A stretch of DNA of 20,428 nt from a virus: positions 1 through 20,428 of IMG/VR virus record IMGVR_UViG_3300035698_017859. The stretch is one strand, 5' to 3'. The position numbers and the translations under genes are program-made. Of the stretch, positions 11 to 19,547 are shown piece after piece. Positions within the stretch are counted from its first letter, which is position 1; each line of letters opens with the position of its first letter. The notes below the pieces were generated by a model, which searched no databases, was not told where the DNA came from, and saw only the letters and a list, made by a program, of their open reading frames with translations.

Positions 11-2005
11 TTATTCATTTTTCTCCACATTTTTTGTTTTACGCTTCTTGATTATCATCTCATTAACAGCATTCATGTCATGTTTTATATATCCAGTATT
101 CACTTCAGTACTCTCTTCAGTCTTAATTTTAGTCTCTTCAAAATCGAAAGGTAGTAAGTCGTCACTTCCATTACTTTCAACATCAGGAGCATCATCAATT
201 ATTTTAGGATTTTCAATATTATTTTCTTCAATATTATTTTCTTCAATTATTTTAGGATTTTCAATATTATTTTCTTCAATATTATTTTCTTCAATTATTT
301 TAGGGGTTTCAATATTATTTTCTTCAATATCACTAGCTACAGGTTCAGGTTCATTCTTAACCAAACCATACATACCAGCTAATGATGAATCGTTGTTTTC
401 TACAGGTACTGCAATTTTCTCTTCAATAGGTTTTTCAATAGGTTTTTCAATAGGTTTTTCAATAGGTTTTTCAATATTTTTCTCTTTTTTCATTCTACAC
501 ATCACATCGCCCAATAAGGAATTATCCTCCACAATTTGAGCATCTTCAATATTACTTACTTTAGCATGTAAGCTACCCGCTTTTTCATTAAATTCATTAA
601 AATCTTCATCTCTATATTTTTTATGTTCGGAATAGAGTCCGTTATTTTTATACTTACTATCTTCGATTCTAATTTCCATAGTATCGTTATTATAGATAGC
701 ATCTTTAAATGTTTGTCCGTCTTGAGCAAATCTAGCTTTAATAATTCTAAAATTAGCTAAATGAGCTTCTTTCTGATCTGGTGTTTTAGCTACACTCATA
801 AAGAAGTGAGCTTTCTGTACTCTTTTAATATTACCACCACTTTGGTGTGCTTCAACTAATTCTGCATCGAAACCAGAACGATTAGATTGGATTGCCGACC
901 AACATGGTATTTCCAAATCTGTAGCTAATCTCTCAAAACTTTTAACAATAACTAATTCAGCTTCATTTCTATCTTTAGTTTTTTTATGTGATTCTAAACA
1001 ATCCAAATAATCTAATGTTAATAAATCGAATTTTATACCATGTTTTTTCTGATATGAAAGCATCCAATTCTTAACGTCAACCATAGTAGTGTCTTCCTCA
1101 GTAAAACGCTTAATGATTAATTTACCTCTACCTTTTTCCTTATAGTCTCTAATTTTTTCATTAACCTTTAATCTTGCTTCATCCAATTTATCATCCATTT
1201 CACTTAATGGAATACCTGTCCAAATAGCGTAGTGTTTACGTTTAACCTGATCCTTAGTATCTTCAAAAATAATTTGAGCAACATTATAATCTAATGCATG
1301 TGCAGTATTGGCAATTTTAGTTAAAAGAGTTGTTTTACCAACACCTGAAGGAGCTAAAATAATACCTATTTCTGATTTACCTAATCCTCCACCAGTAACT
1401 GCATCAATTACTTGGACACCTGTTGGAATAGTTTTCCTAAATTCTTTGGTTAGGGCGCTGTTTACATTTTCAACAACCTCTTCACAATCATCATCATCAA
1501 TTCCGATTTCAGTTATTCTTCTAAAACTATCTTCAATTTCACCAACAACTTGTTTTTGTTTGATTTCACCTCTTTGTGTTTTATGTAGGATAAATTCACC
1601 TAATTTTCTATATTCTTGTTGTTTTATAAAAAGAAGCGTTGCAGCTTGAATAACATCACCATCATGTAATAATTCCTTATTAATGATCATTTGGTTATAG
1701 TTGTTGATGTTCTCTAAGACAGCAAATAATGTTTGTTCCTCAATAGGATTATTAGGCGTTTTGAATTGATTAATCGCCTGTTTAATGCTATTGTTCTGTA
1801 AATTAGGTACTTTGTCATATTCTTTTCGATATTCTAAACAAATAATGAATAATTTCTTTAGAATTGGATCGTCAAAATATGTAATTTCAAGCATATTCAA
1901 AGCCTTTTCAGCAAATTCTGGTTCAACCAGTATTTGCCAAAAAAGATTTTGCTGAAAATCATGACCTAAATACGAAGTTAACGTATTTTCGTTATTTTCA
2001 GACAT
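11..2005 (-). CDS. 41: gp41/DnaB-family replicative DNA helicase with a long repetitive acidic C-terminal tail
   Basis: This 664-aa protein should be the hexameric replicative helicase that unwinds DNA ahead of the phage polymerase and works with the primase. Residues about 1-165 form a helical N-terminal region. The RecA-like motor follows: PTGVQVIDAVTGGGL (194-208), Walker A APSGVGKTT (218-226), a probable catalytic Glu in IIFEDT (E248), Walker B LLTLDYLD (328-335), and a Q-x-N-R stretch (SAIQSNRSG, 370-378) like motif 3 of DnaB/gp41. T4 gp41 is about 475 aa. The extra length here is a low-complexity tail (about 508-664) with five IEKP-type units (511-529), then nearly three 16-residue units IIEENNIEENNIENPK (about 560-605), then SDDLLPFDF. 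It is the last gene visible in its cluster and starts 5 nt after the preceding stop, so it is probably co-transcribed and perhaps translationally coupled. No Shine-Dalgarno is seen. The helicase call is firm; the tail's role is unknown. Confidence 0.9.
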   Translation of the reverse strand: MSENNENTLTSYLGHDFQQNLFWQILVEPEFAEKALNMLEITYFDDPILKKLFIICLEYRKEYDKVPNLQNNSIKQAINQFKTPNNPIEEQTLFAVLENINNYNQMIINKELLHDGDVIQAATLLFIKQQEYRKLGEFILHKTQRGEIKQKQVVGEIEDSFRRITEIGIDDDDCEEVVENVNSALTKEFRKTIPTGVQVIDAVTGGGLGKSEIGIILAPSGVGKTTLLTKIANTAHALDYNVAQIIFEDTKDQVKRKHYAIWTGIPLSEMDDKLDEARLKVNEKIRDYKEKGRGKLIIKRFTEEDTTMVDVKNWMLSYQKKHGIKFDLLTLDYLDCLESHKKTKDRNEAELVIVKSFERLATDLEIPCWSAIQSNRSGFDAELVEAHQSGGNIKRVQKAHFFMSVAKTPDQKEAHLANFRIIKARFAQDGQTFKDAIYNNDTMEIRIEDSKYKNNGLYSEHKKYRDEDFNEFNEKAGSLHAKVSNIEDAQIVEDNSLLGDVMCRMKKEKNIEKPIEKPIEKPIEKPIEEKIAVPVENNDSSLAGMYGLVKNEPEPVASDIEENNIETPKIIEENNIEENNIENPKIIEENNIEENNIENPKIIDDAPDVESNGSDDLLPFDFEETKIKTEESTEVNTGYIKHDMNAVNEMIIKKRKTKNVEKNE
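196..335. repeat. 48-bp in-frame tandem repeat (about 2.8 copies) in the helicase tail
   Basis: Units begin at 196, 244 and 292. The first two are essentially identical and the third degenerates near 330. Each encodes 16 residues rich in Glu, Asn and Ile (IIEENNIEENNIENPK). Because 48 is a multiple of 3, gain or loss of a unit keeps the frame. The purity of the first copies suggests recent slippage or recombination. Confidence 0.9.
424..480. repeat. 12-bp in-frame tandem repeat (about 5 copies) encoding IEKP units
   Basis: Starts are spaced exactly 12 bp apart at 424, 436, 448, 460 and 472 (unit caataggttttt). On the minus strand this encodes four IEKP units followed by IEE/IEK variants (helicase residues about 511-529). 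It forms a regularly charged linker between the motor domain and the acidic repeats. Confidence 0.9.
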
Positions 2006-2010
2006 TTTAT

Positions 2011-2613
2011 TTAGTTAAAATGTATTTCCGATAAAATTCTTCTTCTTGCTTGTGGTGATAAGTCTCTTATTTGTGAAATGTTAAAACCTCTTCTATTGAT
2101 TAAGTCATAGTCATCCCAAATGTTAGTAACATCCTTTTCTCTAACACTATATTCAATCATATTAACGACAGTATTAATTTCTTCAATAATATCCATCGAC
2201 CATCTAGAGATAGGATTAAAATCATCTACAAAAAATTCTCTCTCAACGATTGGATTATCATTAATATATAAACCCATCTTACATCCCACACCCTTAATTG
2301 TTTTCTTATCAACATGATGAGTTATCGATCTAGGCTTATATCTCATATCTTTCCTAAACTCTTTAGGGAACAAATCTATAAGGTCTGATTGATATTTATA
2401 ACAATCAATAACGCCTAGTGGTTTTGTATTATATACTGTTTTAGATAAAACATCTTGTAATCTGTATATAATTTCAGGCAATATGCCTCTAACATCTATA
2501 AAACTTCTCGTCAAAGGACTATAAGAATCTGCGTTAAAAACTTTTTCAGCTAAAACAACATCACCTTGTCTTAATACGAACTTAAACTCATTTCTGTAAT
2601 TACTTTCTTCCAT
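2011..2613 (-). CDS. Unknown 200-aa protein built from two copies of one domain, in the replication operon
   Basis: I do not recognise a named family. The protein contains an internal duplication: residues about 10-57 align with 111-158. Both copies share a strand-turn-strand start (FKFVLRQGDVVLAEKVF / CKMGLYINDNPIVEREF), then an aromatic/Asp-x-x-x-P-x-x-R segment (DSYSPLTRSFID / DDFNPISRWSMD), then a hydrophobic helix (ILPEIIYRLQDVLS / IIEEINTVVNMIEYSV). The linker and C-terminus are basic (FRKDMRYKPR 86-95; QARRRILSE 188-196), compatible with nucleic-acid or protein contact. No membrane segment or signal peptide is seen. It lies 48 nt after the RNase H gene and 5 nt before the helicase gene. 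That position makes a helicase accessory or loader role possible, but this is inference from context. No Shine-Dalgarno is visible. Confidence 0.8.
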   Translation of the reverse strand: MEESNYRNEFKFVLRQGDVVLAEKVFNADSYSPLTRSFIDVRGILPEIIYRLQDVLSKTVYNTKPLGVIDCYKYQSDLIDLFPKEFRKDMRYKPRSITHHVDKKTIKGVGCKMGLYINDNPIVEREFFVDDFNPISRWSMDIIEEINTVVNMIEYSVREKDVTNIWDDYDLINRRGFNISQIRDLSPQARRRILSEIHFN

Positions 2614-2661: not shown

Positions 2662-3711
2662 TCAATTCCTATTGTTTTGCTTATATGTTTTTAATAAATC
2701 CTTCTCATGCATTATAACACTATAAAAAGGTTCAACATATTGTACGAAACTAGCGCCATAAACTGATAGAAAATCATCTTCATTCATCATTCTTAATAAC
2801 TCCCTACTACCTCTATCTGTGGGGTCTAAGGGTAATTCTAATGCAACTAATGCATCAATTGCTTCTTGATTCAATAAAGGCTCACTTAAATTAACTAATT
2901 TATAATTTAATCTCAATCTTTTAACACCATTTACTAAATTAGTTAATGACTTTAATGGTTTTTTCTTCTCTTCTAACCTAGCTTTATTGATTTCGTCTGC
3001 CCTTTTACACACCTCACGAACCATCATTTTCTTATATTTTAACTCTGGTATGTGCTTTAATAGTGTTTTTTCCTTTAACCCTTCAATACCTTCAACATTA
3101 TCAGAGGTATCACCTTCAATTATTTTCATGGTTAACGCATTAGCGAAGAAATGATCAAAATACATCATATAATTCGCTTTCGTTACTGGTTGAGGTAAAT
3201 TGGGGAAGATAATAGTTATGTTTAAATATAATAATTGTGCAAAATCCCTATCATTTGAATATAGAAATATTTCCTCTATATCACAATGATCAATACTATA
3301 TTGTGCGATTATATCATCTCCCTCAATCTTTTCAACCTCTATTTGTCTGAAGAATAGTTCTTCAGCATATTCTTTAATTCTAATTCTTTGCCTTAAAATA
3401 GATTCTTCTTTCTTCTCTTCTTGATCAATTTCTGCTTGGGTTAGTTGAATTTTCTTATGCCATTCCTTAGTCTTTCTATTAGCTTTATAAGCCATATCAA
3501 TCCTATAACGGAATATACCTCCATTCTCACCATCCCATACTAAGACAACCTTATTAATCTTATGTTCCTTTATCATCTTCCTAACAACAGTCATGAATTG
3601 ATATAAACCGCCAATCTGACCATCAAAGGCTACGGTGCTAACATTTTTAGCACCGCAAATTGAACGCCTTAATAAGTAAGAAGAATCTACTAAAAGTGTT
3701 CTCGTTTTCAT
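2662..3711 (-). CDS. rnh: T4 RNase H-like 5'-3' exonuclease / flap endonuclease (FEN family)
   Basis: This 349-aa protein should remove RNA primers and 5' flaps from lagging-strand fragments, as T4 RNase H does. The acidic metal-binding residues of the FEN/PIN fold are visible in order: D9 (LLVDSSYLLRR), D60 (VLVWDGENGG), E130/D132/D133 (IEGDDIIAQY), D154/D156 (YSNDRDFAQLL) and D201/D204 (EGDTSDNVEGIEGLKEKTLLK, the last also being the helix-three-turn-helix DNA-binding element). A charged stretch of about residues 80-115 probably corresponds to the arch/bridge over the active site. It is somewhat longer than T4 RNase H (305 aa), mainly at the C-terminus. The ATG lies 3 nt after the uvsX stop and has the only strong Shine-Dalgarno seen in the window (AAGGAGG, 8 nt upstream), which fixes the start. 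Confidence 0.92.
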   Translation of the reverse strand: MKTRTLLVDSSYLLRRSICGAKNVSTVAFDGQIGGLYQFMTVVRKMIKEHKINKVVLVWDGENGGIFRYRIDMAYKANRKTKEWHKKIQLTQAEIDQEEKKEESILRQRIRIKEYAEELFFRQIEVEKIEGDDIIAQYSIDHCDIEEIFLYSNDRDFAQLLYLNITIIFPNLPQPVTKANYMMYFDHFFANALTMKIIEGDTSDNVEGIEGLKEKTLLKHIPELKYKKMMVREVCKRADEINKARLEEKKKPLKSLTNLVNGVKRLRLNYKLVNLSEPLLNQEAIDALVALELPLDPTDRGSRELLRMMNEDDFLSVYGASFVQYVEPFYSVIMHEKDLLKTYKQNNRN

Positions 3712-3714
3712 TTA

Positions 3715-4872
3715 TTAATCCTCCTTGAGTTCATCCGAATCTGAAGAATCTACTGTTTGAATAAGACTAGGTATTGTAATCGGATTACCTTCAGCATCCA
3801 TATCTCTGGATTTGATCGTTATTCCATCAGCAGTTAAATTATCGTCATCAAACATTCTACGGAAAGTTAAAATATTTTCTTTCTTATACTCTTCAAGTCT
3901 ATCTGGATATACAAACCCTGTCGATGTCGATACGATCTTACCTTCCATTGATATACCACCTAATTCACCGTCAATATGATTCTTAGCAACATTAACCTTA
4001 TTCTCAAAACCATAGTTAAGTTCACGTTTCTTGCTTGTTGCTGTAATTCTTTTAGTTCCGTGAGTCATAATACCACCAAAATGATAAATCAATCTTGCTC
4101 CGAAGAACCATGTTTCACCACCCTTATGTTTAATAACCTTATTCATTGAATCATACCATATCTTCTGTACGGCAATTACCGTATTCGTATATGGATTATC
4201 GACTCTCCTACTTGAAGGTATTGTGCTATTAAGTAATGACATAAACGCCTTTTCGTATGCACCAGCATTCCACATATTATTATCTGTGGTATTTTTTTCT
4301 AGTGCATTAATGGTTTTAATACAATTTAATGTACCTATCGAATCAATGATGAAACACATATCCATTGGTATATTACCTGCATCTTGTTGATCTAAATGAT
4401 AATACATACATTTCGCCAAATCCTCAATAGAAGCTTCTTTCCTTTCCTTATCTTGGAGTTTTCCATAACGTTCAAGCAAATCAGTATTATGTATTAAAAT
4501 ATAATTACCACCCCAATCAAATCCCATTTCAGTTAATCTTAAATTACCTTCATCGATATTATTTTCAGTATCGATGATAATTGGTAATAGACCCATTTTC
4601 TGAGCATTAACGATGGCTTTCATAATCGCAGTTGATTTACCTGTATTACTATAACCACGACATAGGTTTACGTATCCTTTAGCAAATCCGGGTAATCCAG
4701 TTGCTTCTTGTAATGCATCATCACAAGGTATCCATTGCAAAGGTTTTGAAGCAACTGCTTCAGTACCAGTTTTCTTTTTAAAATCGTTTAACGAAAATTT
4801 CTTTTTCGGTGTTGGTGCTGGTTTACGTGCTTTATCATTATTAGGCACATTACTATCTGTTTTTTTTACCAT
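3715..4872 (-). CDS. uvsX: UvsX-type RecA-like recombinase
   Basis: This 385-aa ATPase should coat single-stranded DNA and carry out strand exchange for recombination-dependent replication and repair, working with gp32. Visible motifs: a basic N-terminal tail (1-35), Walker A GYSNTGKST (73-81), DTEN with the probable catalytic Glu (E103), Walker B CFIIDSIG (173-180), and an L2-like segment around VAQKIWYD with a Gly-Gly pair (KGGETWFFGA). The C-terminus is acidic (DSSDSDELKED), as in RecA/UvsX, where such tails moderate DNA binding. T4 UvsX is of similar length (about 390 aa). The gene starts 21 nt after the 107-aa gene and is followed within 3 nt by the RNase H gene, so they are probably one operon. 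The leader lacks a Shine-Dalgarno. The UvsX assignment rests on fold motifs plus the gp32/gp41/RNase H neighbours. Confidence 0.9.
   Translation of the reverse strand: MVKKTDSNVPNNDKARKPAPTPKKKFSLNDFKKKTGTEAVASKPLQWIPCDDALQEATGLPGFAKGYVNLCRGYSNTGKSTAIMKAIVNAQKMGLLPIIIDTENNIDEGNLRLTEMGFDWGGNYILIHNTDLLERYGKLQDKERKEASIEDLAKCMYYHLDQQDAGNIPMDMCFIIDSIGTLNCIKTINALEKNTTDNNMWNAGAYEKAFMSLLNSTIPSSRRVDNPYTNTVIAVQKIWYDSMNKVIKHKGGETWFFGARLIYHFGGIMTHGTKRITATSKKRELNYGFENKVNVAKNHIDGELGGISMEGKIVSTSTGFVYPDRLEEYKKENILTFRRMFDDDNLTADGITIKSRDMDAEGNPITIPSLIQTVDSSDSDELKED
3720..3726 (-). promoter_or_regulatory. Strong Shine-Dalgarno for the RNase H gene, inside the end of uvsX
   Basis: On the minus strand the sequence reads AAGGAGG, 8 nt before the ATG at 3711. 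It overlaps the last uvsX codons (Lys-Glu-Asp). Other genes here start behind A/T-rich leaders with no comparable site. Confidence 0.75.
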
Positions 4873-4893: not shown

Positions 4894-5217
4894 TTAAATA
4901 TTCGGGAATATAACCCATTTACTATTTTTTGCCTTTCTAATCATTTCATTCAATTCCCTTACTATAACCTCATCTAATTCCTTTTCAGTAATATTAGGAT
5001 TATAATACGTATCTATGTTTGTAATATCACGAACATATGTTAATCGTGTATTAAGATACTCACTATATGAGCGTCCCTTTCTATGGAAAATCCAATAAAT
5101 AAAAGTGCCTATTCTATTAAAAAAACCTTTATTCATCTCCCTTATCATTGGAAGCGATCTAACTCTTGGCTCTACAATGAGTTCTTCCAACTCAATATTA
5201 CATTCTTTCTCTTCCAT
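4894..5217 (-). CDS. Hypothetical 107-aa protein between gp32 and uvsX
   Basis: I do not recognise a family. The protein starts with an acidic stretch (MEEKECNIELEELIVE). A central basic/aromatic segment (about residues 30-52, FFNRIGTFIYWIFHRKGRSY) could be an amphipathic or DNA-contacting helix. The C-terminal part looks helical and charged (EKELDEVIVRELNEMIRKAK). The hydrophobic part of FIYWIF is too short for a convincing membrane span. It is the first gene after the gp32 terminator and lies 21 nt before uvsX. Its size and position would suit a recombination mediator (T4 UvsY is 137 aa) or a small accessory factor, but no motif proves this. I could not find a promoter in the 45 nt upstream. 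Confidence 0.7.
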   Translation of the reverse strand: MEEKECNIELEELIVEPRVRSLPMIREMNKGFFNRIGTFIYWIFHRKGRSYSEYLNTRLTYVRDITNIDTYYNPNITEKELDEVIVRELNEMIRKAKNSKWVIFPNI

Positions 5218-5262: not shown

Positions 5263-5296
5263 AAAAAAAATGCCCATCTTATTCGGATGGGCATTT
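5263..5296 (-). terminator. Rho-independent terminator after gp32
   Basis: Read on the minus strand, AAATGCCCATC (5286-5296) pairs perfectly with GATGGGCATTT (5268-5278) across a 7-nt loop. The stem is followed by a run of T, the complement of the A tract at about 5263-5270. It lies 17 nt beyond the gp32 stop codon. Confidence 0.92.
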
Positions 5297-5313
5297 CATT
5301 ATCCGTTCTAATT

Positions 5314-6582
5314 TTAGAAAGGCAAATCATCGAAATCGTCAGATTCCTCTGATTCCTCATTAGTAGTATCAGGAATGTTTGCAGCAGGAGGTTCATTTGC
5401 TGGCTCTGGTTTGACTTCCGTCTTAACAGGTGGAGCAACAGGAATTTCCTTACTCATATCACTAGCATCATCAGTATATGTACCAACAAGCTTAGATGTC
5501 ATCTTACCTACACTAAGATCAGAGGCTTGTTCAAAATTCTCTTGTCGATCTTCAAGATCACGACTACGATTATTTGCAGCTTCCTCTAATTCTGGGTGAT
5601 TCGGAAATACCCATTTTTTATTATCGGAATCAGTATCGTCCCAAAACGGTGAATTACCTTCAACCAATAAGTCTAAATACCTTAATGGTGTGATTAGAGG
5701 TGCTTGTTTAGGTTTGAATACATCTCTCCATGTCATCTCATCAGCAACCCATTGGTTTGCGATTAACGAATCTTGATGTAAGGGTGATTTACCTTTATAA
5801 GTGATAGCTGAAATAGTCTTATAAACTCTACCATTAAACTCACTATCAGTCATGGTAATACTCAAATCAGTACCAACATAAGGGTCAGAAAAGTCTGCAC
5901 TTTGGTTTGTCATATAATCTTCTAGAATTGGAAGTAGCTTGTCTAAAGTACCTTGATTCTTAAAATTATGTTTAAATCTCCAAAACTTAACTCCATCTTT
6001 CTCTAATCCCTTATCAATACCTTTAACAATATAAAATTTCTTAGCTGCCCATTTAATGGCTTCTTTGTAAATTTTATCATTCTTATCATTAATCTTTAAT
6101 TCAGAAGCAGTCATATTATCTTTTTTCTTGCCTCGAAGAGATTGATCTTGCTTTTTCAATTCCGCTTTGTATTTCTCACATAAAGGACACGGAGCAGGTA
6201 TCATTACAGGATTACTTCCCTGATCTACCATAGGTTCTCCATTACCATCCATTCTCTGGACTTTAGGGTCGTTATGCGCAGGGCAATAAACTATTGATCC
6301 ATACTTTTGCTTACGTTTTTTTTTTCCGTTCTCCTCTGTTATAAATCCGGGCATGTTAGTTGCTACTGCCTGAAAAAATGCTTCTTCAATGTGCTTACGA
6401 CCTTTCTTTGGTGGAAGGATTCTGAATGTTTCTTTGGCTTGACGAGGAACGAAATATTTCGCTAAGATTTCTTCTTTAGTCTTCCTCGTGTTAGTTTGTG
6501 TTTGCTTTTTCTGATAATCAGAAAACATGCTTTTTAAATCTTGTAAATCGCCAGTTGCGTTTACGTTTTTTTCTTCACTCAT
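5314..6582 (-). CDS. 32: gp32-like single-stranded DNA-binding protein with zinc site and bacterial SSB-like C-terminal tip
   Basis: This 422-aa protein should bind single-stranded DNA cooperatively at the fork and organise polymerase, recombinase and helicase loading. Residues 1-40 are a charged N-terminal arm of the kind gp32 uses for cooperativity. The core has a zinc site: C100 and H103 (VYCPAH), then C132 and C135 (PCPLC). This is a variant spacing of the T4 gp32 His/Cys3 ligands. Aromatic/basic stretches such as KFYIVKGIDKGLEKDGVKFWRF (about 182-203) suit an OB fold. After about 370 comes a Pro/Glu-rich linker, and the protein ends in ESDDFDDLPF. T4 gp32 is 301 aa, so this one is long, mostly in the linker. 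It is flanked by a predicted promoter and terminators on both sides, implying a single-gene transcript. No Shine-Dalgarno is seen; the start is chosen because it gives the full N-terminal arm. Confidence 0.92.
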   Translation of the reverse strand: MSEEKNVNATGDLQDLKSMFSDYQKKQTQTNTRKTKEEILAKYFVPRQAKETFRILPPKKGRKHIEEAFFQAVATNMPGFITEENGKKKRKQKYGSIVYCPAHNDPKVQRMDGNGEPMVDQGSNPVMIPAPCPLCEKYKAELKKQDQSLRGKKKDNMTASELKINDKNDKIYKEAIKWAAKKFYIVKGIDKGLEKDGVKFWRFKHNFKNQGTLDKLLPILEDYMTNQSADFSDPYVGTDLSITMTDSEFNGRVYKTISAITYKGKSPLHQDSLIANQWVADEMTWRDVFKPKQAPLITPLRYLDLLVEGNSPFWDDTDSDNKKWVFPNHPELEEAANNRSRDLEDRQENFEQASDLSVGKMTSKLVGTYTDDASDMSKEIPVAPPVKTEVKPEPANEPPAANIPDTTNEESEESDDFDDLPF

Positions 6583-9578: not shown

Positions 9579-12278
9579 TTAAATTTCTGTTATTTCAATA
9601 TCATATAATGCGTTAGAATCCCACCTACCGTCTGGTAGTAAATTTGATTCTAAACTAAATAAACCGCTTCTCCCTAAAATAGTAGTAAAAACACTAGTCT
9701 CATCAGCCTTTCTCATGATCATCTTATAAAATTGATCTCTATCGGGATTAGTGCTATCAATATATAATTCCTCGGTTGAATTAGTAATTAGTTGAGTATC
9801 TTGTGTTGACGTTCCTCCAGTTGAAAGATCGGTTATTTGAAACGTAATGCCTGTAGGTGACTCATCTATTGCAGTATAGTCGTACCCATAAGCTCCAACA
9901 TAATCTGTCGAACCCGTTGAATATGTAAAATCATATGTATTATGTGTAGTTCCTGTTAATCCAGTATATGATAAACATGTAGTAGAACCTAAAAGATTTA
10001 ATGAATAATCTCTTACTCCTAGATTAGTAAATATATACGAATATAGATCAATAACCTTTGAATGTAAATCCCATCCATTTGATTGCATTTCACTTAATGT
10101 ATCTATAAATCTAGCACTAACAGGACTTTCCGTATCATCAGCAATTCCCAAAAAGTCAGTATTTATTAAATCATTATCAAGAGTAACATCCATATAAATA
10201 TTATTATCAGAATTATATTCACCTACCCAATCACAATCCCAAATAAACCCACCTGTACTATTACCTGCATATGCACCGTAGTTTAATCTTATTATATTAT
10301 TATAAAAATTAATAGTTTGATTTTGATTCAAATAACCAAAGAATAGTGTTTCGTATTGTTTTCCATCACCTTGTGCTTCAATAGTATTTGAAAGAACATT
10401 AAGTTCTCCAATATCAGTAGTCATATCCAGAATAGTCCCCTTATTATAACTATATTCAGGACTATTAAAATTATTGTAAAAAACATTAGATATTAAATTT
10501 AAATAAATAGTTGGTATTGACGCTGCTATTACGATTGCTAAACTCCCAAAATTAAAGATTTTATTTCTTCGAATATCTATTCTTTGAGCATCTAATATCA
10601 TACAGCCTTCCCAACCATTACTACCATCAAAAGTATTGTCTTTAATTGTTAAAAGATTACAAGAAAGGGCATAAAGATGAGAAGGTTTACCAATTAGCAT
10701 TGTATAAATACCTGAGAAGCTATTATTAATAATAGTTGCGTTATCAATTCCATTCACATCAACAATACGTGTAGCGATATTAGTAAATGTACAGTTACTT
10801 ACGGTATAGTTAGTACAGAATGCCGCTTTTACCCCATAAATACCATAACGAGGGTCGCCTCCTGTGGTATAGTTAAGCCCATCAATTGTACAATTATCAA
10901 TGATAATATTATCTGACACATTTACTGTACTACCTACCACAACAATAGCACCTAACTCTTCAGGCATACTTCTTTGTGCCTTAGAACCTGCCTTAATGTA
11001 ATTACAATTCTTTACATGTATATTATCTGAATTTTGTATATAAAAACCTCCTAAATCATCACAGTCTAAAGTATATAATCCCTGTCCGTCAACGGTTAGT
11101 ACATATTCAGTACCCTTATTAAAGTCTTTAACTCTATATGTGAAATACTCCACAGTATTTGATTCCACTAATGTCGCATTAACATAAACCCTCACATCTT
11201 GAGTAAGTCCTGAAGGATAATCATGATCAACAGCTTCTAGAGCATCCCTAACAGTGCCATATTTTGTCACAACATCACTTCTAAAAACACCTTGAGTAAA
11301 CGTTACTGTATCTGACTGAACATCACTCTCACCAAAGACATTCTTTAATTTAAGATATACTGTTTTTGTAATATCAGAAATGAATGGGAAATTATAATTA
11401 ATTGTTCCACCGTCATATGCTTCCCACGTAGCGCCTATAAAATCTATACTATTAGATAACATATATTCTGTCGGCACGTTATCATAATCTAATACTATTG
11501 GTACATCAGGCATTGCTGAATCAGCACCTCCATTAATTATTATTGAGTTCAGTACTGGTGGTGCTGATATTGCATATGCAGTATCTAATAAATATGAAGT
11601 ACCTTCAACTAACGTAAATTCAGGTATAATACCAGTGGTTGGATTATAAGTAGGAAAAATATCAGCATTATTTAATGTTAAACCAGTTGGAGAATAACCC
11701 GCACTAGGCGTTATTTTAATAGTATAATTACCTCCATCTAATGTTGTATAAACAATACTATCAGTAGAAGTAATGTCAGATACAGTATTACCTGATGCAT
11801 CTAGAAATCTATATACATTACCTGCAAAATTATTTCCATCGTAGGTTGAATTCATACCAAATAATATACTTCCAGACCCCATTAATGTATCTAGTGCTTG
11901 TTTTACTGAATATTGATTATATGTTACAAAATCCGATCTTAATTGACCGCTAAAAGATAAACTTTCTAATAATGATACAACATCACTAGCACCCATTGCA
12001 ACTTTAAAGTGGGCATCTGTATTACCGCCCTTAAATGTATATCTTTGATATGTAAAGCCTGTTTGACCATTTATGAAATCAGGTATAGGAAAACTACCCG
12101 AAGGTTGTAACATTATAACCTCTTCGCCTTGTTTTCTAACGCCCATAACTATATCAGCTAAATATTCTTCTTTTGTCTTAACTATAACAGACGCACCACT
12201 CTGATAATAATTTGATTTATAATTATCTAATGTTGCAAGACTTGATAAAAATAGTTGATCATTTAATTCTATTGCCAT
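9579..12278 (-). CDS. Tail-fibre/spike protein: shared N-terminal domain, Ig-like domain and pectate-lyase-like beta-helix
   Basis: This 899-aa protein begins with a domain of about 130 residues (LNDQL, LDNYKSNYYQSGA, TKEEYLADI, GEEVIMLQPSGSFP, KGGNTDAHFK) also present in the 279-aa and 2129-aa neighbours. That domain is probably a common tail-attachment module. Residues 136-240 are beta-rich and unassigned. An Ig-like domain (about 242-328, EYMLSNSIDFIGATW, KTVYLKLKNVFGES) is shared with the 944-aa protein. From about 330 to 770 there is a right-handed beta-helix with turn-rich rungs (NIHVKNCNYI, NIIIDNCTIDGL, YTVSNCTFTNI, LLTIKDNTFDGS). After VGAYGYDYT the last 115 residues form a separate beta domain ending DGRWDSNALYDIEITEI. 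A polysaccharide-binding or depolymerase role is plausible for such helices, but no active site can be named. The start is supported by alignment with the paralogues. Confidence 0.8.
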   Translation of the reverse strand: MAIELNDQLFLSSLATLDNYKSNYYQSGASVIVKTKEEYLADIVMGVRKQGEEVIMLQPSGSFPIPDFINGQTGFTYQRYTFKGGNTDAHFKVAMGASDVVSLLESLSFSGQLRSDFVTYNQYSVKQALDTLMGSGSILFGMNSTYDGNNFAGNVYRFLDASGNTVSDITSTDSIVYTTLDGGNYTIKITPSAGYSPTGLTLNNADIFPTYNPTTGIIPEFTLVEGTSYLLDTAYAISAPPVLNSIIINGGADSAMPDVPIVLDYDNVPTEYMLSNSIDFIGATWEAYDGGTINYNFPFISDITKTVYLKLKNVFGESDVQSDTVTFTQGVFRSDVVTKYGTVRDALEAVDHDYPSGLTQDVRVYVNATLVESNTVEYFTYRVKDFNKGTEYVLTVDGQGLYTLDCDDLGGFYIQNSDNIHVKNCNYIKAGSKAQRSMPEELGAIVVVGSTVNVSDNIIIDNCTIDGLNYTTGGDPRYGIYGVKAAFCTNYTVSNCTFTNIATRIVDVNGIDNATIINNSFSGIYTMLIGKPSHLYALSCNLLTIKDNTFDGSNGWEGCMILDAQRIDIRRNKIFNFGSLAIVIAASIPTIYLNLISNVFYNNFNSPEYSYNKGTILDMTTDIGELNVLSNTIEAQGDGKQYETLFFGYLNQNQTINFYNNIIRLNYGAYAGNSTGGFIWDCDWVGEYNSDNNIYMDVTLDNDLINTDFLGIADDTESPVSARFIDTLSEMQSNGWDLHSKVIDLYSYIFTNLGVRDYSLNLLGSTTCLSYTGLTGTTHNTYDFTYSTGSTDYVGAYGYDYTAIDESPTGITFQITDLSTGGTSTQDTQLITNSTEELYIDSTNPDRDQFYKMIMRKADETSVFTTILGRSGLFSLESNLLPDGRWDSNALYDIEITEI
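12058..12110 (-). repeat. 53-bp perfect repeat, copy 1 (N-terminal domain of the 899-aa protein)
   Basis: This stretch is identical, base for base, to 12907-12959. It encodes the end of the PSGSFPIPDFINGQTGF segment. Identity at synonymous sites, within otherwise diverged paralogues, points to recent duplication or gene conversion. Confidence 0.9.
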
Positions 12279-12290
12279 TTTTTTATGTTT

Positions 12291-13130
12291 TTATGATGTT
12301 ATATATAATTTAAATATGATTGGAGAAGTCGTTGTATCCATAATATCTGTTTTTAATAATATAGTATTTGTTATTCCTCCTTGGTCGTATGTTCCAACAG
12401 AACTAAATAAACTGGTTATGTTTGAATTTATTCCATTTGTAATTGTTAAACTACTCACTTTCGCACTAGGTACTGTTATATAAAACCAGTTCTGATTATA
12501 ATTATCTAGTGTGATTAAACTACCTGCATCAAATTCAATTAAACTATCCTCTGCATATGTTAATGGAGTATATCCAGTAGTTGGAGTTGTACTTGCAGCA
12601 TCGCTAGTGTATCGATGACCTATAAAATAACTAGGTGCTGCGGTTGTCGTTGTTGTCGTAGCTAACGTTGTTGTTGTTGTCGTAGCTAATGTTGTTGTAG
12701 TCGTTGTAGATGCCGTAAGATGATAACTAAATAAGATATCAAGTGCTTCTTCTACTGAATACTCATTATATGTTATGTTATCTGACCTTAATTGACCACT
12801 AAACGGTAAGGTTTGCATTAACGATATAATGTCGTCACCATCTATTGCAAGTTTAAAATGAACATCACTATTACCACCTCTAAAAGTATATATCTCGTGA
12901 GTAAATCCTGTTTGACCATTTATGAAATCAGGTATAGGAAAACTACCCGAAGGTTGTAAGATTATAACCTCCTCACCCTGTTTTCTAATACTTAAACTAA
13001 TATCAGCTAAATATTCTTCTTTCGTCCTAACTATAACAGTTGCACCACTCTGATAAAAATTCGATTTGTAATTATCTAACGCACCTAAACTTTTTACAAG
13101 CAATTGATCATTTAATCTTATTGTTCCCAT
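12291..13130 (-). CDS. Short tail-fibre protein: shared N-terminal domain, poly-Thr linker and shared C-terminal domain
   Basis: This 279-aa protein joins both exchangeable ends of the locus with little between. Residues 1-135 are the N-terminal domain shared with the 899- and 2129-aa proteins (LNDQLL, LDNYKSNFYQSGA, TKEEYLADI, PSGSFPIPDFINGQTGF). Residues 138-166 are a threonine linker (LATTTTTT units ending in AAP). Residues 167-279 match the C-terminal domain of the 157-aa protein and of the truncated gene at the window edge (GHRYTSD; GYTPLTYAEDSLIE; YNQNWFYITVPSAKVSS; ITSLFSSVGTYDQGGI; ILLKTD). It is probably a minimal fibre or adaptor. No enzyme motif, signal peptide or membrane segment is seen. 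It lies 12 nt before the 899-aa gene and 27 nt after the 2129-aa gene, so it is probably co-transcribed with both. Confidence 0.8.
   Translation of the reverse strand: MGTIRLNDQLLVKSLGALDNYKSNFYQSGATVIVRTKEEYLADISLSIRKQGEEVIILQPSGSFPIPDFINGQTGFTHEIYTFRGGNSDVHFKLAIDGDDIISLMQTLPFSGQLRSDNITYNEYSVEEALDILFSYHLTASTTTTTTLATTTTTTLATTTTTTAAPSYFIGHRYTSDAASTTPTTGYTPLTYAEDSLIEFDAGSLITLDNYNQNWFYITVPSAKVSSLTITNGINSNITSLFSSVGTYDQGGITNTILLKTDIMDTTTSPIIFKLYITS
12633..12719 (-). repeat. Threonine-codon repeat encoding a poly-Thr linker
   Basis: The stretch is an imperfect trinucleotide array of Thr codons interrupted twice by Leu-Ala, giving LATTTTTT units and a final AAP. It separates the two domains of the 279-aa protein. 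Such arrays change length easily by slippage without breaking the frame. Confidence 0.85.
12907..12959 (-). repeat. 53-bp perfect repeat, copy 2 (N-terminal domain of the 279-aa protein)
   Basis: Identical to 12058-12110 and in the same orientation, 849 bp away. The surrounding sequence is similar but diverged. Recombination between the two copies would fuse the 279-aa N-terminus to the 899-aa body. Confidence 0.9.
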
Positions 13131-13157: not shown

Positions 13158-16100
13158 TTAAACTGCATCAATTATTGATATAGTATTGGAGTATCTAAGA
13201 CCTATACTATTTCTCGCAAATGCTCTAATAAAATACGTACCTCCTAAATCAGTTACCGTATCAGTAAATACTCCCTTATATGCACCAACCTTATAAATCA
13301 CACTAGCATTCTCAATAGTAGGAGTTGAATTTGTTGAAACTGCGAATCCTCTTTGATAAACATGAGAACCTTCTTCACTAGTAACCTCACATGTAACATC
13401 AACAGTACTTCCACCATCAACAAATGTTAATGTTGCCAAAACTGGAAGTCCTCTGGCTGTATCACATATAGGATAATCCCATTCCCTACCAAAACCAGTA
13501 TGTAAACGAGGTAGACTATATAAATTCCATTCTAATCCATCCTCAGTACCCTCCCTATTTACTGTCAAATTAGTGCCAAACTCGTTCACAGCAAAACCTT
13601 CTGCTTGTCCCAGTAAGGAATTACCGGGAATGGCGGTTTGTGATATTGAACGTAAATATGTTGCTGATTTATTTGAATAATCATATTCATGGTATGAATT
13701 AGTATTTCCACCTCCATCTACATAACTAATAACATATAATCTATTAGTGTATGAACAATATGCGAAACCACTAGATTTACCTTCCTGATAGTTATATTCG
13801 GTAGGGAGGTTATTCGGTATGTAATCCATAAACGAAGGTATCAACTGATGTTTAGCGTGACTTCCCCGTATTCTTGTATTGAATTTAGTAGTTCCTGAAA
13901 ATATGTCATCTAATTCTAAAAAGCTAGATAAGTCTTGTTGTTCACTTTGAAATATTATGCCTCGTAATATTGGATCATATAGGAACGCCTCATCTTTATT
14001 ACTGGATGCGTCAGCTAATACAATCCTATACTTACTGTCATTATCTGGATTAATGACAGTAGTGCCTCCACTAAGTGTTGCATCTAACTTTACTATCCAT
14101 ATCAAATGTCTAGTACTTTCATGCATAATCACAAAATAACCATTTCCTAAATATTGTATTTCTTCGTGATCACTCCAAGAAGTTGTAGGTTCAACTGGTG
14201 ATACTGCACCTATGTCATGCTCTATAGAATATTTATGTATTAACGATGGTGATGGTTGATTAACGTCATAAACCCCAATACGACCAGTATTAGCGGGAAC
14301 ATTCGGAGTACCGCATCTATCACCCATACTATAGTAATAACCGTTATCCCAATTATAACATGCACCTGAACCATATGTATAGCCATCGTCAACACCTCGT
14401 TCATTCTTCACATAGGTTATATTATCGAACGTTTTGGTTGACCTCCAAGCAGCTTTAGTAGTGTTGGTAGCATCCTCAGAATAATAACCAGCATCTTCAT
14501 TGATATATATTTTCACATAATAAGTAGTGTCGTCAACCAACCCTGTAATAGTATCATTATAAGTACCGTTGCCAGTACCTAACAATATATCAGTACTACT
14601 AGAAAAATCTGAATTTACTGAATATCTAATATATGCATTTGAAGCAATATCAATACCAGCAACAATAGTATCTACTTCAATACCACCAGTAACACTCGTT
14701 GTTATAATTGATGCACTTGGTGGTGGGGGTGCTGGTTGGGTTATAACATACCATGAATCAGTATTAACTTCAGGATGACCTAATATTGGTGATGGTGTTA
14801 GTGCTATAAAATCACTACCTGTAACACCCGCAGTATCTTCAGAAGTCCACCAGAACGTAGTTCCTGAAGCGTTCGCTGTTAAACTTCCTTCATCATTAGT
14901 GCTTGCATTAATAGTTCCCACTATTTGATCTAAAAAGGTTAAGTCATTATCTGCTTCAATATGAAACTCATTTAATGTTTTCGTATCGCCATCTACTGAA
15001 TATGCGTGAACATACATTCTCCTTAAATAAGTATTTACATACATTTCATTTATTGAGCTTATAGGTAGTGTACCATTCCAAGTACCTACTATCTGACTAG
15101 TAATATCAACAGCAACCCCTAATTCAACAACACCAATACTTTGTTCTGAAACTGGAATTCTATATACTTTATTAGTGGAAGTCCCACCATAAGCAACATA
15201 AAAATAACCAATACCACCACTAGGTTTATTTCCAAAATCAAAACATATTGATGCTACTGCTCTAGATGAATATGTTATAACGTCTTGATTTAAAACAAAA
15301 TCATCTGAAGTTAGTTCTGTTTTATTTGGATTTAAATATATTATTATAATATTTGAAGTATCTTCATTAATAATAGCAACCAATCCATTACCCATATAAG
15401 TCATTGAACCCAAATTCCCTACATCGCTAAGAGCACTATCAATACTCCAACTTCTAACTGAATTAAATGTTGTTTGATTAAGCTCTCGTATCCAATTTAT
15501 CCCACCTGAACCTTGTCTTAAATATAATAACCTATCACTATCATGATCATATGTTAAACCACGAGGATTAGTGTAGTCAGCCTCTCTAATACCTTTATCT
15601 GTTGAAAATCCAATGTATGGTAAGAAACTATTACTAGCATTATAATTATATCCAGTAGAGGATATTGTGGTCGTAGTTGTATTAGGTGAAGGAATACTGG
15701 TAAAATTATACCATTCTTGATTACTAACCCCTGAATGTGTAAACAATTCAATATGGTCTAATTTACTAAAATATGTTCCCAAAGAACCAGTAATTTGACC
15801 CATGAACCAAAATGTTGATCCTAAAGGCGTTGCAGTTATACTTGTTTGAGCCGCAGAACTATAATTAACATTAGTTGATGATGATATAATACTAAGGAAC
15901 GTTAGAGTGTTGTTCGTATTTATTTGATACTCCATTACCGATCTATTCCCTATCTCAAGACCATGTATGTAAAGTCTTCTTAGATATGTGTTAACATATA
16001 TGTCTGTAATTGAAATTACATCCATATCAGTTCCAAAATTACTTAAAACTGAACTTGTAATATCTTCCACCGTATTAGATAATGTTAAATCATCATTAAC

Positions 16101-19100
16101 AGCTACACGGAATAATTCACTAGTAGTACTACTACCACCGACACTAATATAAAAATATCCAATTCCACCACTAGGTGTATTCCCAAAATCAAACGCTAAT
16201 CCTCTAGAAACTCCGCCATATGGAGTATTAAGAACTTCATTTGAAAGAAAATCAGAACTTGTTATTGTAGAACTATTTAACTCAGCAATAACAATATTAT
16301 ACGTACCTTCTTCAATCATACCAACCACACCATCACCCATAAAAACAATTGATGCTGGATTCGTAATATTATTGAGAGTCCAAATAGCTGTTGTATTAAA
16401 TGAATTACTATCAAGTGCTAATATTCTTGGAGTTGTTGAATTATCTAAAAACAATAATCTATCATTAATATGATCATATGTTAAACCACGAGGATTTTCA
16501 TAGGATGACTGATATGTACCCTCATCGCTACTAAAACCAATCAAAGGTAAGAATGGAGTGTTAGCTTCATATGTTATCTCATCAGTTTTAAGACCCGTTC
16601 CATCAAATTCATACCAAGGATCGGTACACACATCATTATGTGTGAAAACCCCAACATGATCTAATTTGATTATATTAGCATATGTATGCGTAGTATCAAC
16701 ACCCATAAACCAGAATGCTGTTCCTTCTGGAGTTGCAATTATACTACTTTCCCTACTAGTACTGAAATTTACCATGTCATTATCAATAATACTTCCAACA
16801 TAAGTTAAAGTATTATCGCTATTTATTCGATACTCAATTATTGATCTATTACTAGTCTCTAAACAATGAACATATAATCTTCTTAAATAAGTATTTACAT
16901 AACACGATGTTAACGATACAATTGTATTACCATCATGAGTAGTTAACACAGATGCTGTTAAATCAACAGAATTACCTAAACTCACAACACCACTACCATT
17001 AACTAATAGTTCAATACGATGTAAATTACTTCCACTACCATGACCATGAAGTATATAAAAATATCCAATTCCACCACTAGGTTTATTTCCAAAATCAAAA
17101 GATAATGATCTTGTTATAGTAGCAGTACTACTTATCGAAGTATTTGCGTTTAATATAAAGTCACTAGCATCATAAGTTGATGAAGTACCTGAAATATTAA
17201 CTATTATAATGTTTGCTGGAGTTTCTCCATCTAAAATAGCTAACATATCATTGCCCATATATTCTATTGACTTAGCAGAAGCTATATCAGTAATGGTAAA
17301 GGAACGTTCTGAAGAAAATGATGTTTCATTTAGAACAACTATTTCAGTTGGAGTAGTATCTTTCAGCAATAATATTTTACTATTATCATGATCGTATGTT
17401 ATTGCTCGTGCGTCAGCATTTGTTGTCTGAGTTCCTGAATCGCTTGAAAAACCAATAGAAAATGCGAACGAATAATTAGTATCATATCCATCCAGAACAG
17501 TAGTACGATCATAATAATTTTCTGTTTTCACACCTGCAATAGTCCATACACCGTTATTATCATAACGCCACTTCTCTAATCTAAATGTAGATTCTGATCC
17601 ATTAAATTTATGAAGATTAAGCCATGACTGATTATCACCATAATATTGAAAATAAACAGCATTAATATTAGGAACATATTGATTATCTTGATAAGTATAT
17701 GCCCCGCTAAGACCTCCTCCAATATAATACGTATTGCTTTGTACTCCTAATGCATATCGACTAAATGCCATATGTTCCCAATCCTTATATATTGGATCGA
17801 TAGTACCATACCCATTCCAAGGCTGGAATATGTAATTCCAATGCACATGTCCTGATAAGGATGCGCATACTTTCATCGTATGCAGTAATGAAACCATTTC
17901 ATCTCTACCAGCAGTATACATATCAAGCGAATCTCCTTCATGTCCAAGTACAAGATCAGGTTCTTCTGTTGTTACGGCAAAATCTTCAAGATAATTACCG
18001 AAAGGAAAATAAGGTTCATGACCCACTAAAACAATTTGTCTTCCTTCTGAAGAAGAACCCGCCATTTCACGAACAAACTCAATCATGTGAGGCACTATCT
18101 GACCACTAGTGTTATTACCTGCTAATGGAGTATCGAGTAATCCGCTTCCCGCATACGCATTTAATACGATAATCCTTACTGTATCAAAATCTACGGCATA
18201 TGTAGTTTTACTAACTTCACTACTGCCATTATAATACCAACTAGCACTTGTCCCCGTTACAGGTACAGTTCTATGATATAATGGCGTGAAATTATTAAAA
18301 TAACCACTAATGTTTGCACTAACAAAAGATTGTGAAGTTTCGAAGAAAAAGTTTGATTCTGTTGTACGATGTAATTCAATCGATAAATAATTCCAACCAG
18401 TAACTAAATTATCGGCACTTATTATAGCAAGATTATTATTATATGACGTAGAGATTGCTTCAGTACTGCTTATAACAGTTGTAGGTAAATTTACCTTTAG
18501 CTTTTCTATACCGTTAATATTTAAAATAAATCCACCTAACATGTTATAGTCGAATCTAATATCACTAACTAAAGATGCATCATAAACCCAAAATTTCTTT
18601 CTTAAATATGTCGTTATGGGACAATTACCTGCACCATCTTCAACACTTAAATTATGTCTAGAACCATTAACATTCCACGATAAGCTAGTAGGTATATATC
18701 TCCAAGCACTATCATCATAATTATTATCGATCCAAACACCAGATGGTTCAGACGGTGATAATAACCATGCGTTTCTATCAGTAAATGATATTATATTACC
18801 ACCAGTCGTTCTATTGTTTATCCAATCAGTCACATCTAATTCATCTCTCATATTTTGTAAAACAGCACCAATAGTAACATCCTGTTCATAAGTCCCACTA
18901 GGACTAGGTGAATCAAACATATCATGATTACCGGGAGCTGCTAATAAACGAGCACCTTCAACACCAGCACTACTACCACCTAAAATATTTACCATATCAT
19001 TAAGTACGTCTATATAAAAACCCTCACCATCAGCAAAATCACCAGCACCTAAAATATGGCTAATCGTTTGATCTCTATGTAATTCGCCTATACCAGCTAA

Positions 19101-19547
19101 AGTACGTTCTGGAGATACATGTACATCATTAATTTGAACGAAATTATATGAATCAGTACCTAACGGTGCTTGTGTGGTTGTTGGTGTAGGTGATGTTGTC
19201 TGATTTAATGCCAGATTAAGAGCTTCTTCTATCGTATATTCAACATCATTATATGTTATACTATCCTTTATAAAATGAGCATCACTATTACCACCCTTAA
19301 ATCGGTACTTCTGATATGTAAATCCGCTAGGATTACCAAAAAACTCGCTTAGAGGATATGTGCCTGAAGGTGTTAAAAATATAATTTCTTCACCCGGTCT
19401 TCTATAAGTTAATGAAATCCTAATTAAATATTCTTCTTCTGTCTCGATTTTAATACTAGCTCCTTCTTTTCTATAATTACATTTATATGAATCTAAACTG
19501 CTCGGTGAAAGCAAAAAAATCTCATCTGATATGTTAGTTCTTCCCAT
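13158..19547 (-). CDS. Giant 2129-aa tail adhesin with metallophosphoesterase domain, jelly-roll insert, propeller-like repeats and FN3-like domains
   Basis: Residues 1-113 are the N-terminal domain shared with two downstream tail proteins, followed by a Pro/Thr linker (116-130). A calcineurin-like metallophosphoesterase occupies about 131-245 and 445-615 with every metal-ligand motif: D141-x-H143, G-D170-F-A-D173, G-N207-H208-D, H510 (VGHEP) and H567-x-H569 (SGHVHW). Between its halves (about 250-425) sits a jelly-roll-like insert (DDSAW, TTYLRKKFWV, LNINGIEKLKVNLP). Three tandem units follow (about 698-985, 1003-1285, 1310-1602), each with IGFSxDxG, YDHxxxxLLxL, FDFGNxPSGGIGYFY, YVNTYLRRxYxH and a final W-Y. 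Then come an FN3-like domain (about 1608-1700), a divergent fourth propeller-like region (about 1702-2025) and a terminal domain ending GGTYFIRAFARNSIG. It is probably a long fibre or adhesin that binds, and may dephosphorylate or cleave phosphodiesters in, host surface glycans. The activity is inferred. The start is supported by its paralogues. Confidence 0.85.
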   Translation of the reverse strand: MGRTNISDEIFLLSPSSLDSYKCNYRKEGASIKIETEEEYLIRISLTYRRPGEEIIFLTPSGTYPLSEFFGNPSGFTYQKYRFKGGNSDAHFIKDSITYNDVEYTIEEALNLALNQTTSPTPTTTQAPLGTDSYNFVQINDVHVSPERTLAGIGELHRDQTISHILGAGDFADGEGFYIDVLNDMVNILGGSSAGVEGARLLAAPGNHDMFDSPSPSGTYEQDVTIGAVLQNMRDELDVTDWINNRTTGGNIISFTDRNAWLLSPSEPSGVWIDNNYDDSAWRYIPTSLSWNVNGSRHNLSVEDGAGNCPITTYLRKKFWVYDASLVSDIRFDYNMLGGFILNINGIEKLKVNLPTTVISSTEAISTSYNNNLAIISADNLVTGWNYLSIELHRTTESNFFFETSQSFVSANISGYFNNFTPLYHRTVPVTGTSASWYYNGSSEVSKTTYAVDFDTVRIIVLNAYAGSGLLDTPLAGNNTSGQIVPHMIEFVREMAGSSSEGRQIVLVGHEPYFPFGNYLEDFAVTTEEPDLVLGHEGDSLDMYTAGRDEMVSLLHTMKVCASLSGHVHWNYIFQPWNGYGTIDPIYKDWEHMAFSRYALGVQSNTYYIGGGLSGAYTYQDNQYVPNINAVYFQYYGDNQSWLNLHKFNGSESTFRLEKWRYDNNGVWTIAGVKTENYYDRTTVLDGYDTNYSFAFSIGFSSDSGTQTTNADARAITYDHDNSKILLLKDTTPTEIVVLNETSFSSERSFTITDIASAKSIEYMGNDMLAILDGETPANIIIVNISGTSSTYDASDFILNANTSISSTATITRSLSFDFGNKPSGGIGYFYILHGHGSGSNLHRIELLVNGSGVVSLGNSVDLTASVLTTHDGNTIVSLTSCYVNTYLRRLYVHCLETSNRSIIEYRINSDNTLTYVGSIIDNDMVNFSTSRESSIIATPEGTAFWFMGVDTTHTYANIIKLDHVGVFTHNDVCTDPWYEFDGTGLKTDEITYEANTPFLPLIGFSSDEGTYQSSYENPRGLTYDHINDRLLFLDNSTTPRILALDSNSFNTTAIWTLNNITNPASIVFMGDGVVGMIEEGTYNIVIAELNSSTITSSDFLSNEVLNTPYGGVSRGLAFDFGNTPSGGIGYFYISVGGSSTTSELFRVAVNDDLTLSNTVEDITSSVLSNFGTDMDVISITDIYVNTYLRRLYIHGLEIGNRSVMEYQINTNNTLTFLSIISSSTNVNYSSAAQTSITATPLGSTFWFMGQITGSLGTYFSKLDHIELFTHSGVSNQEWYNFTSIPSPNTTTTTISSTGYNYNASNSFLPYIGFSTDKGIREADYTNPRGLTYDHDSDRLLYLRQGSGGINWIRELNQTTFNSVRSWSIDSALSDVGNLGSMTYMGNGLVAIINEDTSNIIIIYLNPNKTELTSDDFVLNQDVITYSSRAVASICFDFGNKPSGGIGYFYVAYGGTSTNKVYRIPVSEQSIGVVELGVAVDITSQIVGTWNGTLPISSINEMYVNTYLRRMYVHAYSVDGDTKTLNEFHIEADNDLTFLDQIVGTINASTNDEGSLTANASGTTFWWTSEDTAGVTGSDFIALTPSPILGHPEVNTDSWYVITQPAPPPPSASIITTSVTGGIEVDTIVAGIDIASNAYIRYSVNSDFSSSTDILLGTGNGTYNDTITGLVDDTTYYVKIYINEDAGYYSEDATNTTKAAWRSTKTFDNITYVKNERGVDDGYTYGSGACYNWDNGYYYSMGDRCGTPNVPANTGRIGVYDVNQPSPSLIHKYSIEHDIGAVSPVEPTTSWSDHEEIQYLGNGYFVIMHESTRHLIWIVKLDATLSGGTTVINPDNDSKYRIVLADASSNKDEAFLYDPILRGIIFQSEQQDLSSFLELDDIFSGTTKFNTRIRGSHAKHQLIPSFMDYIPNNLPTEYNYQEGKSSGFAYCSYTNRLYVISYVDGGGNTNSYHEYDYSNKSATYLRSISQTAIPGNSLLGQAEGFAVNEFGTNLTVNREGTEDGLEWNLYSLPRLHTGFGREWDYPICDTARGLPVLATLTFVDGGSTVDVTCEVTSEEGSHVYQRGFAVSTNSTPTIENASVIYKVGAYKGVFTDTVTDLGGTYFIRAFARNSIGLRYSNTISIIDAV
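14742..17456 (-). repeat. Three tandem ~300-residue coding repeats (propeller-like) in the giant adhesin
   Basis: The units span about 17456-16593, 16541-15693 and 15620-14742. Each keeps the same order of motifs over about 285 residues (RGLTYDH or equivalent, FDFGN-PSGGIGYFY, YVNTYLRR, FWFMG or equivalent). The DNA has diverged outside these motifs, so the duplications are older than the perfect repeats elsewhere in the locus. The second and third units are separated by a Thr-rich linker (1287-1298). Confidence 0.85.

Follow-up and report, generated by a model that had tools for sequence, protein, structure and literature searches.

Bacterial single-stranded DNA-binding proteins (SSBs; PF00436) carry a disordered linker followed by an acidic peptide with a final Leu/Ile-Pro-Phe, by which repair and replication enzymes are recruited, and a Pro-Phe-ending tip is also found on the SSB of phage HK620, which infects E. 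coli. Binding of SSB-coated ssDNA by the phage recombinase Sak4, a RecA-like protein, depends on the six C-terminal residues of the HK620 protein, NDYPPF (PMC5928155); that paper compares this SSB with E. coli SSB and does not describe it as gp32-type. In the crystal of Deinococcus RecJ with the peptide EDDLPF, the terminal Phe lies in a deep hydrophobic pocket (PMC4846377), and fusion of an SSB tail to PriB, another OB-fold protein, gave a man-made chimera (PriB-SSBc) that raised the stimulation of PriA (PMC8509808). In T4, the C-domain of gp32 binds the phage proteins UvsX, UvsY and gp59 (PMC3016280) as well as Dda, the Dda-binding element being an internal helix (residues 248-270) and not the tip (PMC11551737), whilst the zinc ligands of T4 gp32 are His64, Cys77, Cys87 and Cys90 (PMC10732053). 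In T4-like phages, the replication hub is generally regarded as a phage-only assembly. Though the gp32 fold and the SSB-type motif are both known, their combination on one protein was not found in the open-access literature searched.

Identification of the gp32-type protein

The window, which is the whole stretch of viral DNA analysed (20,428 bases) and is taken here as a piece of a larger genome, contains an ORF at 5314-6582 (-) encoding a protein of 422 aa, with an N-terminal helix and a basic stretch, a gp32 core at about residues 35-311 and a disordered tail. Sequence searches with this protein returned no PHROGs family at 0.001, no Pfam family (the bacterial SSB domain PF00436 included), no match in the phage collection and no gp32 in the PDB, and a comparison of the clade family with the T4 gp32 sequence alone by hhalign gave 2%. 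This lack of a family was resolved by the fold search. The AlphaFold2 model, built with 56 aligned sequences, reached a pLDDT of 80.2 and a pTM of 0.71, with most of the core above 90 and the tail at low confidence (pLDDT <50 for residues 365-417). In the PDB, it matched the RB69 gp32 core (2a1k_A; Z 11.4, rmsd 4.0, 193 aligned) and T4 gp32 (1gpc; Z 11.3), with the next unrelated entry at Z 4.0, and Foldseek matched it to gp32 at an E-value of 1.2e-6. In addition, phrog_1192 (single-strand DNA binding protein) was matched by 8/16 core sequences of the family, with a best value of 6.3e-6, and the T4 gp32 sequence also matches phrog_1192, at 3.5e-16. Judged by its modelled fold, the window protein is a gp32-type SSB, so the original prediction of a T4-type gp32 holds for the fold, whilst the sequence searches with the window protein itself did not bear it out. 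The core fold, the order His/Cys...Cys-x2-Cys and an acidic disordered tail are common to the window protein and T4/RB69 gp32, but the identity over the aligned core in the PDB fold search is only about 12%, and T4 gp32 ends differently, in LDDLLNDL.

A gp32 zinc motif had also been predicted. Zinc-type cysteines are located at residues 100-136 (6175..6285, minus strand), where C100, C132 and C135 are invariant columns of the 56-row alignment, C100 standing in C-P-A-H (residues 100-103) and the other two in CPLC. The column at the place of T4 His64, positioned by motif order, holds His in at least 90% of the 56 rows, whereas the window protein has Gln71; the cysteine part of the predicted motif is present, and the window protein, with Gln in place of the relatives' His, does carry the His of C-P-A-H.

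The C-terminal tip and its conservation

The protein ends ...SEESDDFDDLPF; its stop codon lies at 5314-5316 and ESDDFDDLPF is encoded by 5317-5346, so the DDFDDLPF end that had been reported is indeed present at the C-terminus. The tip FDDLPF (residues 417-422) together with the stop codon occupies 5314..5334 (-) and is preceded by a linker predicted to be disordered (residues 367-416; 5335..5484, minus strand) and by a proximal tail element (residues 341-366; 5485..5562, minus strand). An intrinsic-terminator-like hairpin with a 12-pair stem and a T run directly follows the stop codon at 5267..5297 (-), and its folding z-score is -6.05.

The relatives were the best 80 per scan of 167, 286, 174, 306 and 167 confirmed. 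All of the clade scans used core-only alignments or patterns except one, which had the tip-overlapping peptide EESDDFDD among its six patterns, so, in all but that scan, the tip could not select itself. C-termini with identical last 150 residues were merged before counting, two sequences that had no stop codon (L363 and L443) were left out, and the window protein itself stands outside the resulting 111. A loss of Pro-Phe in close relatives, which had been named beforehand as counter-evidence, was looked for, and the LPF end was kept in 111/111 distinct relatives and DLPF in 108/111 (best 80 per viral-contig scan plus one genome-contig hit), with Phe always the final residue, where an SSB-Ct pocket would read it. 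The relatives' tips also carry Tyr or Phe at position -6 in 103/111 cases (best 80 per scan). One member of the clade (L150) comes from a Candidatus Izimaplasma MAG, where it lies on a 4.4-kb piece, perhaps a misbinned phage contig.

This constancy was observed in a divergent family, with pairwise BLAST identities down to 34% in the first 94 relatives. In the 56-row alignment, the mean frequency of the top residue is 0.76 for residues 49-340, 0.74 for the proximal element 341-366, 0.34 for the hypervariable linker 367-416 and 1.0 for residues 419-422. The codons of the tip vary synonymously, with six codons used for Leu and four for Pro in 94 sequences, and among the remaining ORFs of 100 aa or more from the relatives' loci and the window, 11/624 end in F and 0/624 in PF. 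Some clade tails (L177 and L159) are barely acidic upstream of an intact tip. By these comparisons, the end of the tip is beyond chance and under strong selection. An acidic peptide ending in Leu-Pro-Phe was found at the extreme C-terminus, on a disordered and variable linker, as in an SSB-Ct, and the predicted resemblance to the bacterial SSB tip was borne out by its invariance, its exactly C-terminal position, the disorder before it and its match to the ends of Bacteroidota SSBs. The tip is very probably a selected docking peptide of the SSB-Ct type on a gp32-type SSB, its binding being predicted.

The proximal element has a consensus of about NLDADxDxxFEQASDL...VTISNIT in the alignment of relatives. 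By analogy, it may be a second docking segment and possibly the counterpart of the Dda-binding helix 248-270 of T4 gp32.

Host phylum and the tips of bacterial-type SSBs

The host was deduced from the relatives' genes, the window alone having too few (10). Upstream of 547 genes in the relatives' loci, adenine makes up 0.61 of the letters at -14 to -11 versus 0.41 elsewhere, and Shine-Dalgarno motifs were counted 9 times versus 6 in a control stretch; for comparison, T4-like phages of gammaproteobacteria (six records) gave Shine-Dalgarno motifs in 5/14. Adenines at -14 to -11 without a Shine-Dalgarno sequence are the pattern of Flavobacterium johnsoniae, which has been called characteristic of Bacteroidetes (PMC6847099). 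Because the start signals match this pattern, the hosts of the clade are most likely Bacteroidota.

Two Flavobacteriaceae, F. psychrophilum and Psychroflexus torquis, have SSBs with a DLPF end, and the gammaproteobacterial SSBs listed with them end in DIPF (PMC3991886, Table 1). A plasmid search for Bacteroidota SSBs listed plasmids of enterobacteria and other gammaproteobacteria, which were kept out of this comparison. The bacterial-type SSBs of three Bacteroidota phages end in DDLPF, and when nine related viral contigs are added, LPF is found in 12/12 and DLPF in 11/12. Since the SSBs of Bacteroidota and their phages end in (D)LPF, the gp32 tip, as far as sequence can tell, carries the host-phylum form of the SSB motif. 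It is, nevertheless, not a plain copy of a bacterial tip, because Tyr/Phe at -6 was observed in 0/12 of these bacterial-type SSBs; E. coli SSB has none there either. The window protein thus resembles a bacterial SSB in its disordered linker, acidic peptide and final residues, but differs from it in the gp32 fold, the lack of a Pfam match and the aromatic residue at -6.

Other gp32-like proteins and the immuto clade

The Pro-Phe end was detected in 0/18 of the gp32-like SSBs sampled, T4 and one immuto record included, and, by these sequences, it is specific to the window clade among the gp32-like groups sampled. The gp32-like SSB of Rhizobium phage RHph_I34 (L230; 902-1936) ends in NDTPFD, one residue past what would be a terminal Pro-Phe.

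Flavobacterium phage immuto (Immutovirus) shares with the window clade the order SSB, recombinase, 5'-3' exonuclease and DnaB. Its recombinase is 33% identical to that of the window, and its SSB is weakly similar to a distant clade member (31% over 111 aa, E 2e-3) but shorter than the window protein (279 aa versus 422 aa). The SSBs of the immuto clade end in F-D-[DE]-L-F-[NKS](E) in 55/55 and in Pro-Phe in 0/55 (best 80 of the scan, L397-L476). This invariant immuto-type tip is apparently another uncharacterised docking motif. Because both clades have the aromatic-D-D-L core of the tip and only the window clade has the Pro-Phe end, the comparison suggests, we infer, that Pro-Phe evolved on a tip already present in the phage and was not captured with a bacterial tail.

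The replication cassette

Downstream of the gp32-type gene, the window encodes on the minus strand a RecA/UvsX-like recombinase at 3715..4872 (phrog_97, 5.3e-11), which is a candidate phage partner, a 5'-3' exonuclease of the flap/RNase H type at 2662..3711 (PF02739, 2.4e-21), a conserved cassette protein of 200 aa at 2011..2613 and a DnaB-like replicative helicase at 11..2005 (phrog_19, 3.5e-46; PF03796, 2.8e-15). The order gp32, recombinase, exonuclease and helicase is kept in the relatives, as it is in phage immuto.

The 200-aa protein, which lies between the exonuclease and the helicase, also stands beside the cassette in the relatives, with 33-51% identity in 47 of them. Its AlphaFold2 model, made to look for a known gp32 partner, is confident (pLDDT 91.5), but no match was obtained among PDB folds (best VIA Z 3.9; Foldseek best E 0.11). 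By eye, its two halves look alike.

The tail of the DnaB-like helicase contains SDDLLPFDF, which was absent from the relatives' helicase tails read; as this motif is internal and no similar one occurs in those tails, a tip on other phage proteins was rejected. The helicase ORFs of two relatives (L043 and L172) run into intein-like sequence (CLGLNTKVNIEG... and CLDINTLVEIEN...). A 107-aa ORF at 4894-5217 (-), between the gp32-type and recombinase genes, has no relative in the fetched loci.

Candidate partners of the tip

The phages of the clade carry their own replication and recombination genes. In 14 large relatives of 128-372 kb, records given without a statement of completeness, a T4-like polymerase of the B family, as in T4, was found in 13/14 and DNA polymerase A in 0/14. 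Domain searches for PF00436, RecO_C, the PriA 3'BD and the RecJ OB domain gave 0/14, so partners of the RecO, PriA or RecJ type would be those of the host. DnaG_N was observed in 7/14 and RNase HI in 2/14, RecQ-Zn gave one broken sub-threshold hit and UDG one hit below the cut-off, whilst gp59 was found in 0/14, in a search whose control likewise gave no match. With PF00436 in 0/14 of these records, replacement of the host SSB by a bacterial SSB of the phage's own was rejected within the limits of the sample. If a pocket of the classical type is used, it would belong either to a protein of the host or to a phage protein that has its own pocket.

The best explanation is that, in a lineage of large T4-like phages whose hosts are most likely Bacteroidota, a T4 gp32-type SSB has evolved or acquired on its disordered acidic tail an SSB-Ct-type docking peptide, [Y/F]-x-D-L-P-F-COOH. 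Each gp32 monomer on the phage ssDNA would display a tip whose final Phe, with its carboxylate, would occupy an SSB-Ct pocket in the way seen for EDDLPF bound to Deinococcus RecJ. Further contacts might come from the acidic residues upstream and from the phage-specific Tyr/Phe at -6, and DNA-processing enzymes would in this way be recruited to phage ssDNA. For this explanation as a whole, with host partners among the targets, we see an even chance. Whether the partners include host SSB-interacting proteins such as PriA, RecJ, RecO, RecQ and exonuclease I, perhaps alongside phage proteins, is about a balanced question; these host partners are favoured because the last four residues of the tip are those of Bacteroidota SSBs, and we think that they are the leading single option for its targets. 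The immuto clade speaks against them, as its gene order is the same, its host is a Flavobacterium in culture and its tips lack Pro-Phe, so docking to host pockets is not required for such phages. Likewise, the aromatic residue at -6, absent from the 12 bacterial-type SSBs, points to a partner outside the set of host SSB partners, or in addition to them, and HK620 offers by analogy a Pro-Phe tip of a phage SSB that binds a phage recombinase (PMC5928155).

The same evidence sustains the reading, plausible if somewhat doubtful, that the tip docks only phage-encoded partners which have evolved an SSB-Ct-like pocket, its likeness to the host tip being convergence or shared chemistry. The partner would then most likely be the RecA/UvsX-like recombinase downstream, or a helicase, primase or polymerase. 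Such a partner is consistent with the need of Sak4 for NDYPPF, with the aromatic residue in 103/111 clade tips versus 0/12 bacterial-type SSBs, with the aromatic-D-[DE]-L that the sister immuto clade keeps without Pro-Phe (55/55), with the conserved gene order and with the binding of UvsX, UvsY, gp59 and Dda by the C-domain of T4 gp32 (PMC3016280; PMC11551737). However, no phage family with a known SSB-Ct pocket is universal among the 14 large relatives, DnaG_N and RNase HI being found in 7/14 and 2/14 and RecQ-Zn and UDG not above the cut-off, and the tip matches the host-phylum form exactly in its last four residues.

A tip that speaks to both sides, with aromatic-D-D-L addressing a phage partner and D-L-P-F-COOH the SSB pockets of the host, would capture the host SSB interactome; this is conceivable but rather unlikely. 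If it were true, gp32 might be sensed, without a bacterial SSB fold, by host defence systems that read SSBs.

The tip might instead act mainly in cis, its acidic and aromatic C-terminus competing with ssDNA for the trough and tuning binding, with no partner in trans devoted to it. The C-domain of T4 gp32 has been proposed to bind at or near the ssDNA site (PMC5892887; PMC11551737), and removal of the acidic tail changes the DNA binding of T4 gp32, T7 gp2.5 and Enc34 SSB (PMC5686142). Charge alone would not, however, require an invariant L-P-F end, the tails of L177 and L159 keep the tip though they are barely acidic upstream, other gp32-like tails end differently and AlphaFold2 leaves the tail at low confidence, and we regard a mainly cis-acting tip as improbable. 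That the tip was inherited without function, or that the protein was mis-called, has no observation in its favour and is hardly credible against an invariant LPF with synonymous codon change behind a hypervariable linker and a baseline of 0/624.

If the docking tip on gp32 works as an SSB-Ct, the phage could draw the replication-restart and repair enzymes of the host to its own DNA or compete for them with the host SSB, and one ssDNA recruitment code would have emerged on two SSB folds unrelated to each other. Whilst the PriB-SSBc chimera was man-made, the tip on the phage gp32 is natural, and in HK620, where a Pro-Phe-ending tip likewise stands on a phage SSB, recruitment of a partner has been shown. 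The tip also matters for the way in which phage SSBs are recognised by the defence systems that they activate.

Other ORFs of the window

Three further long ORFs, which follow one another on the minus strand, at 9579-12278, 12291-13130 and 13158-19547, have a common N-terminal module of about 90-130 residues, with pairwise identities of 71%, 52% and 40%, followed by different C-terminal parts. To judge from this arrangement, the set looks like a series of fibre or surface proteins built on one shared anchor. The last of them, of 2129 aa (13158-19547), includes a stretch that has by eye the look of a calcineurin-like phosphoesterase (ND.H...GD...GNHD), which is unusual in a putative fibre protein.
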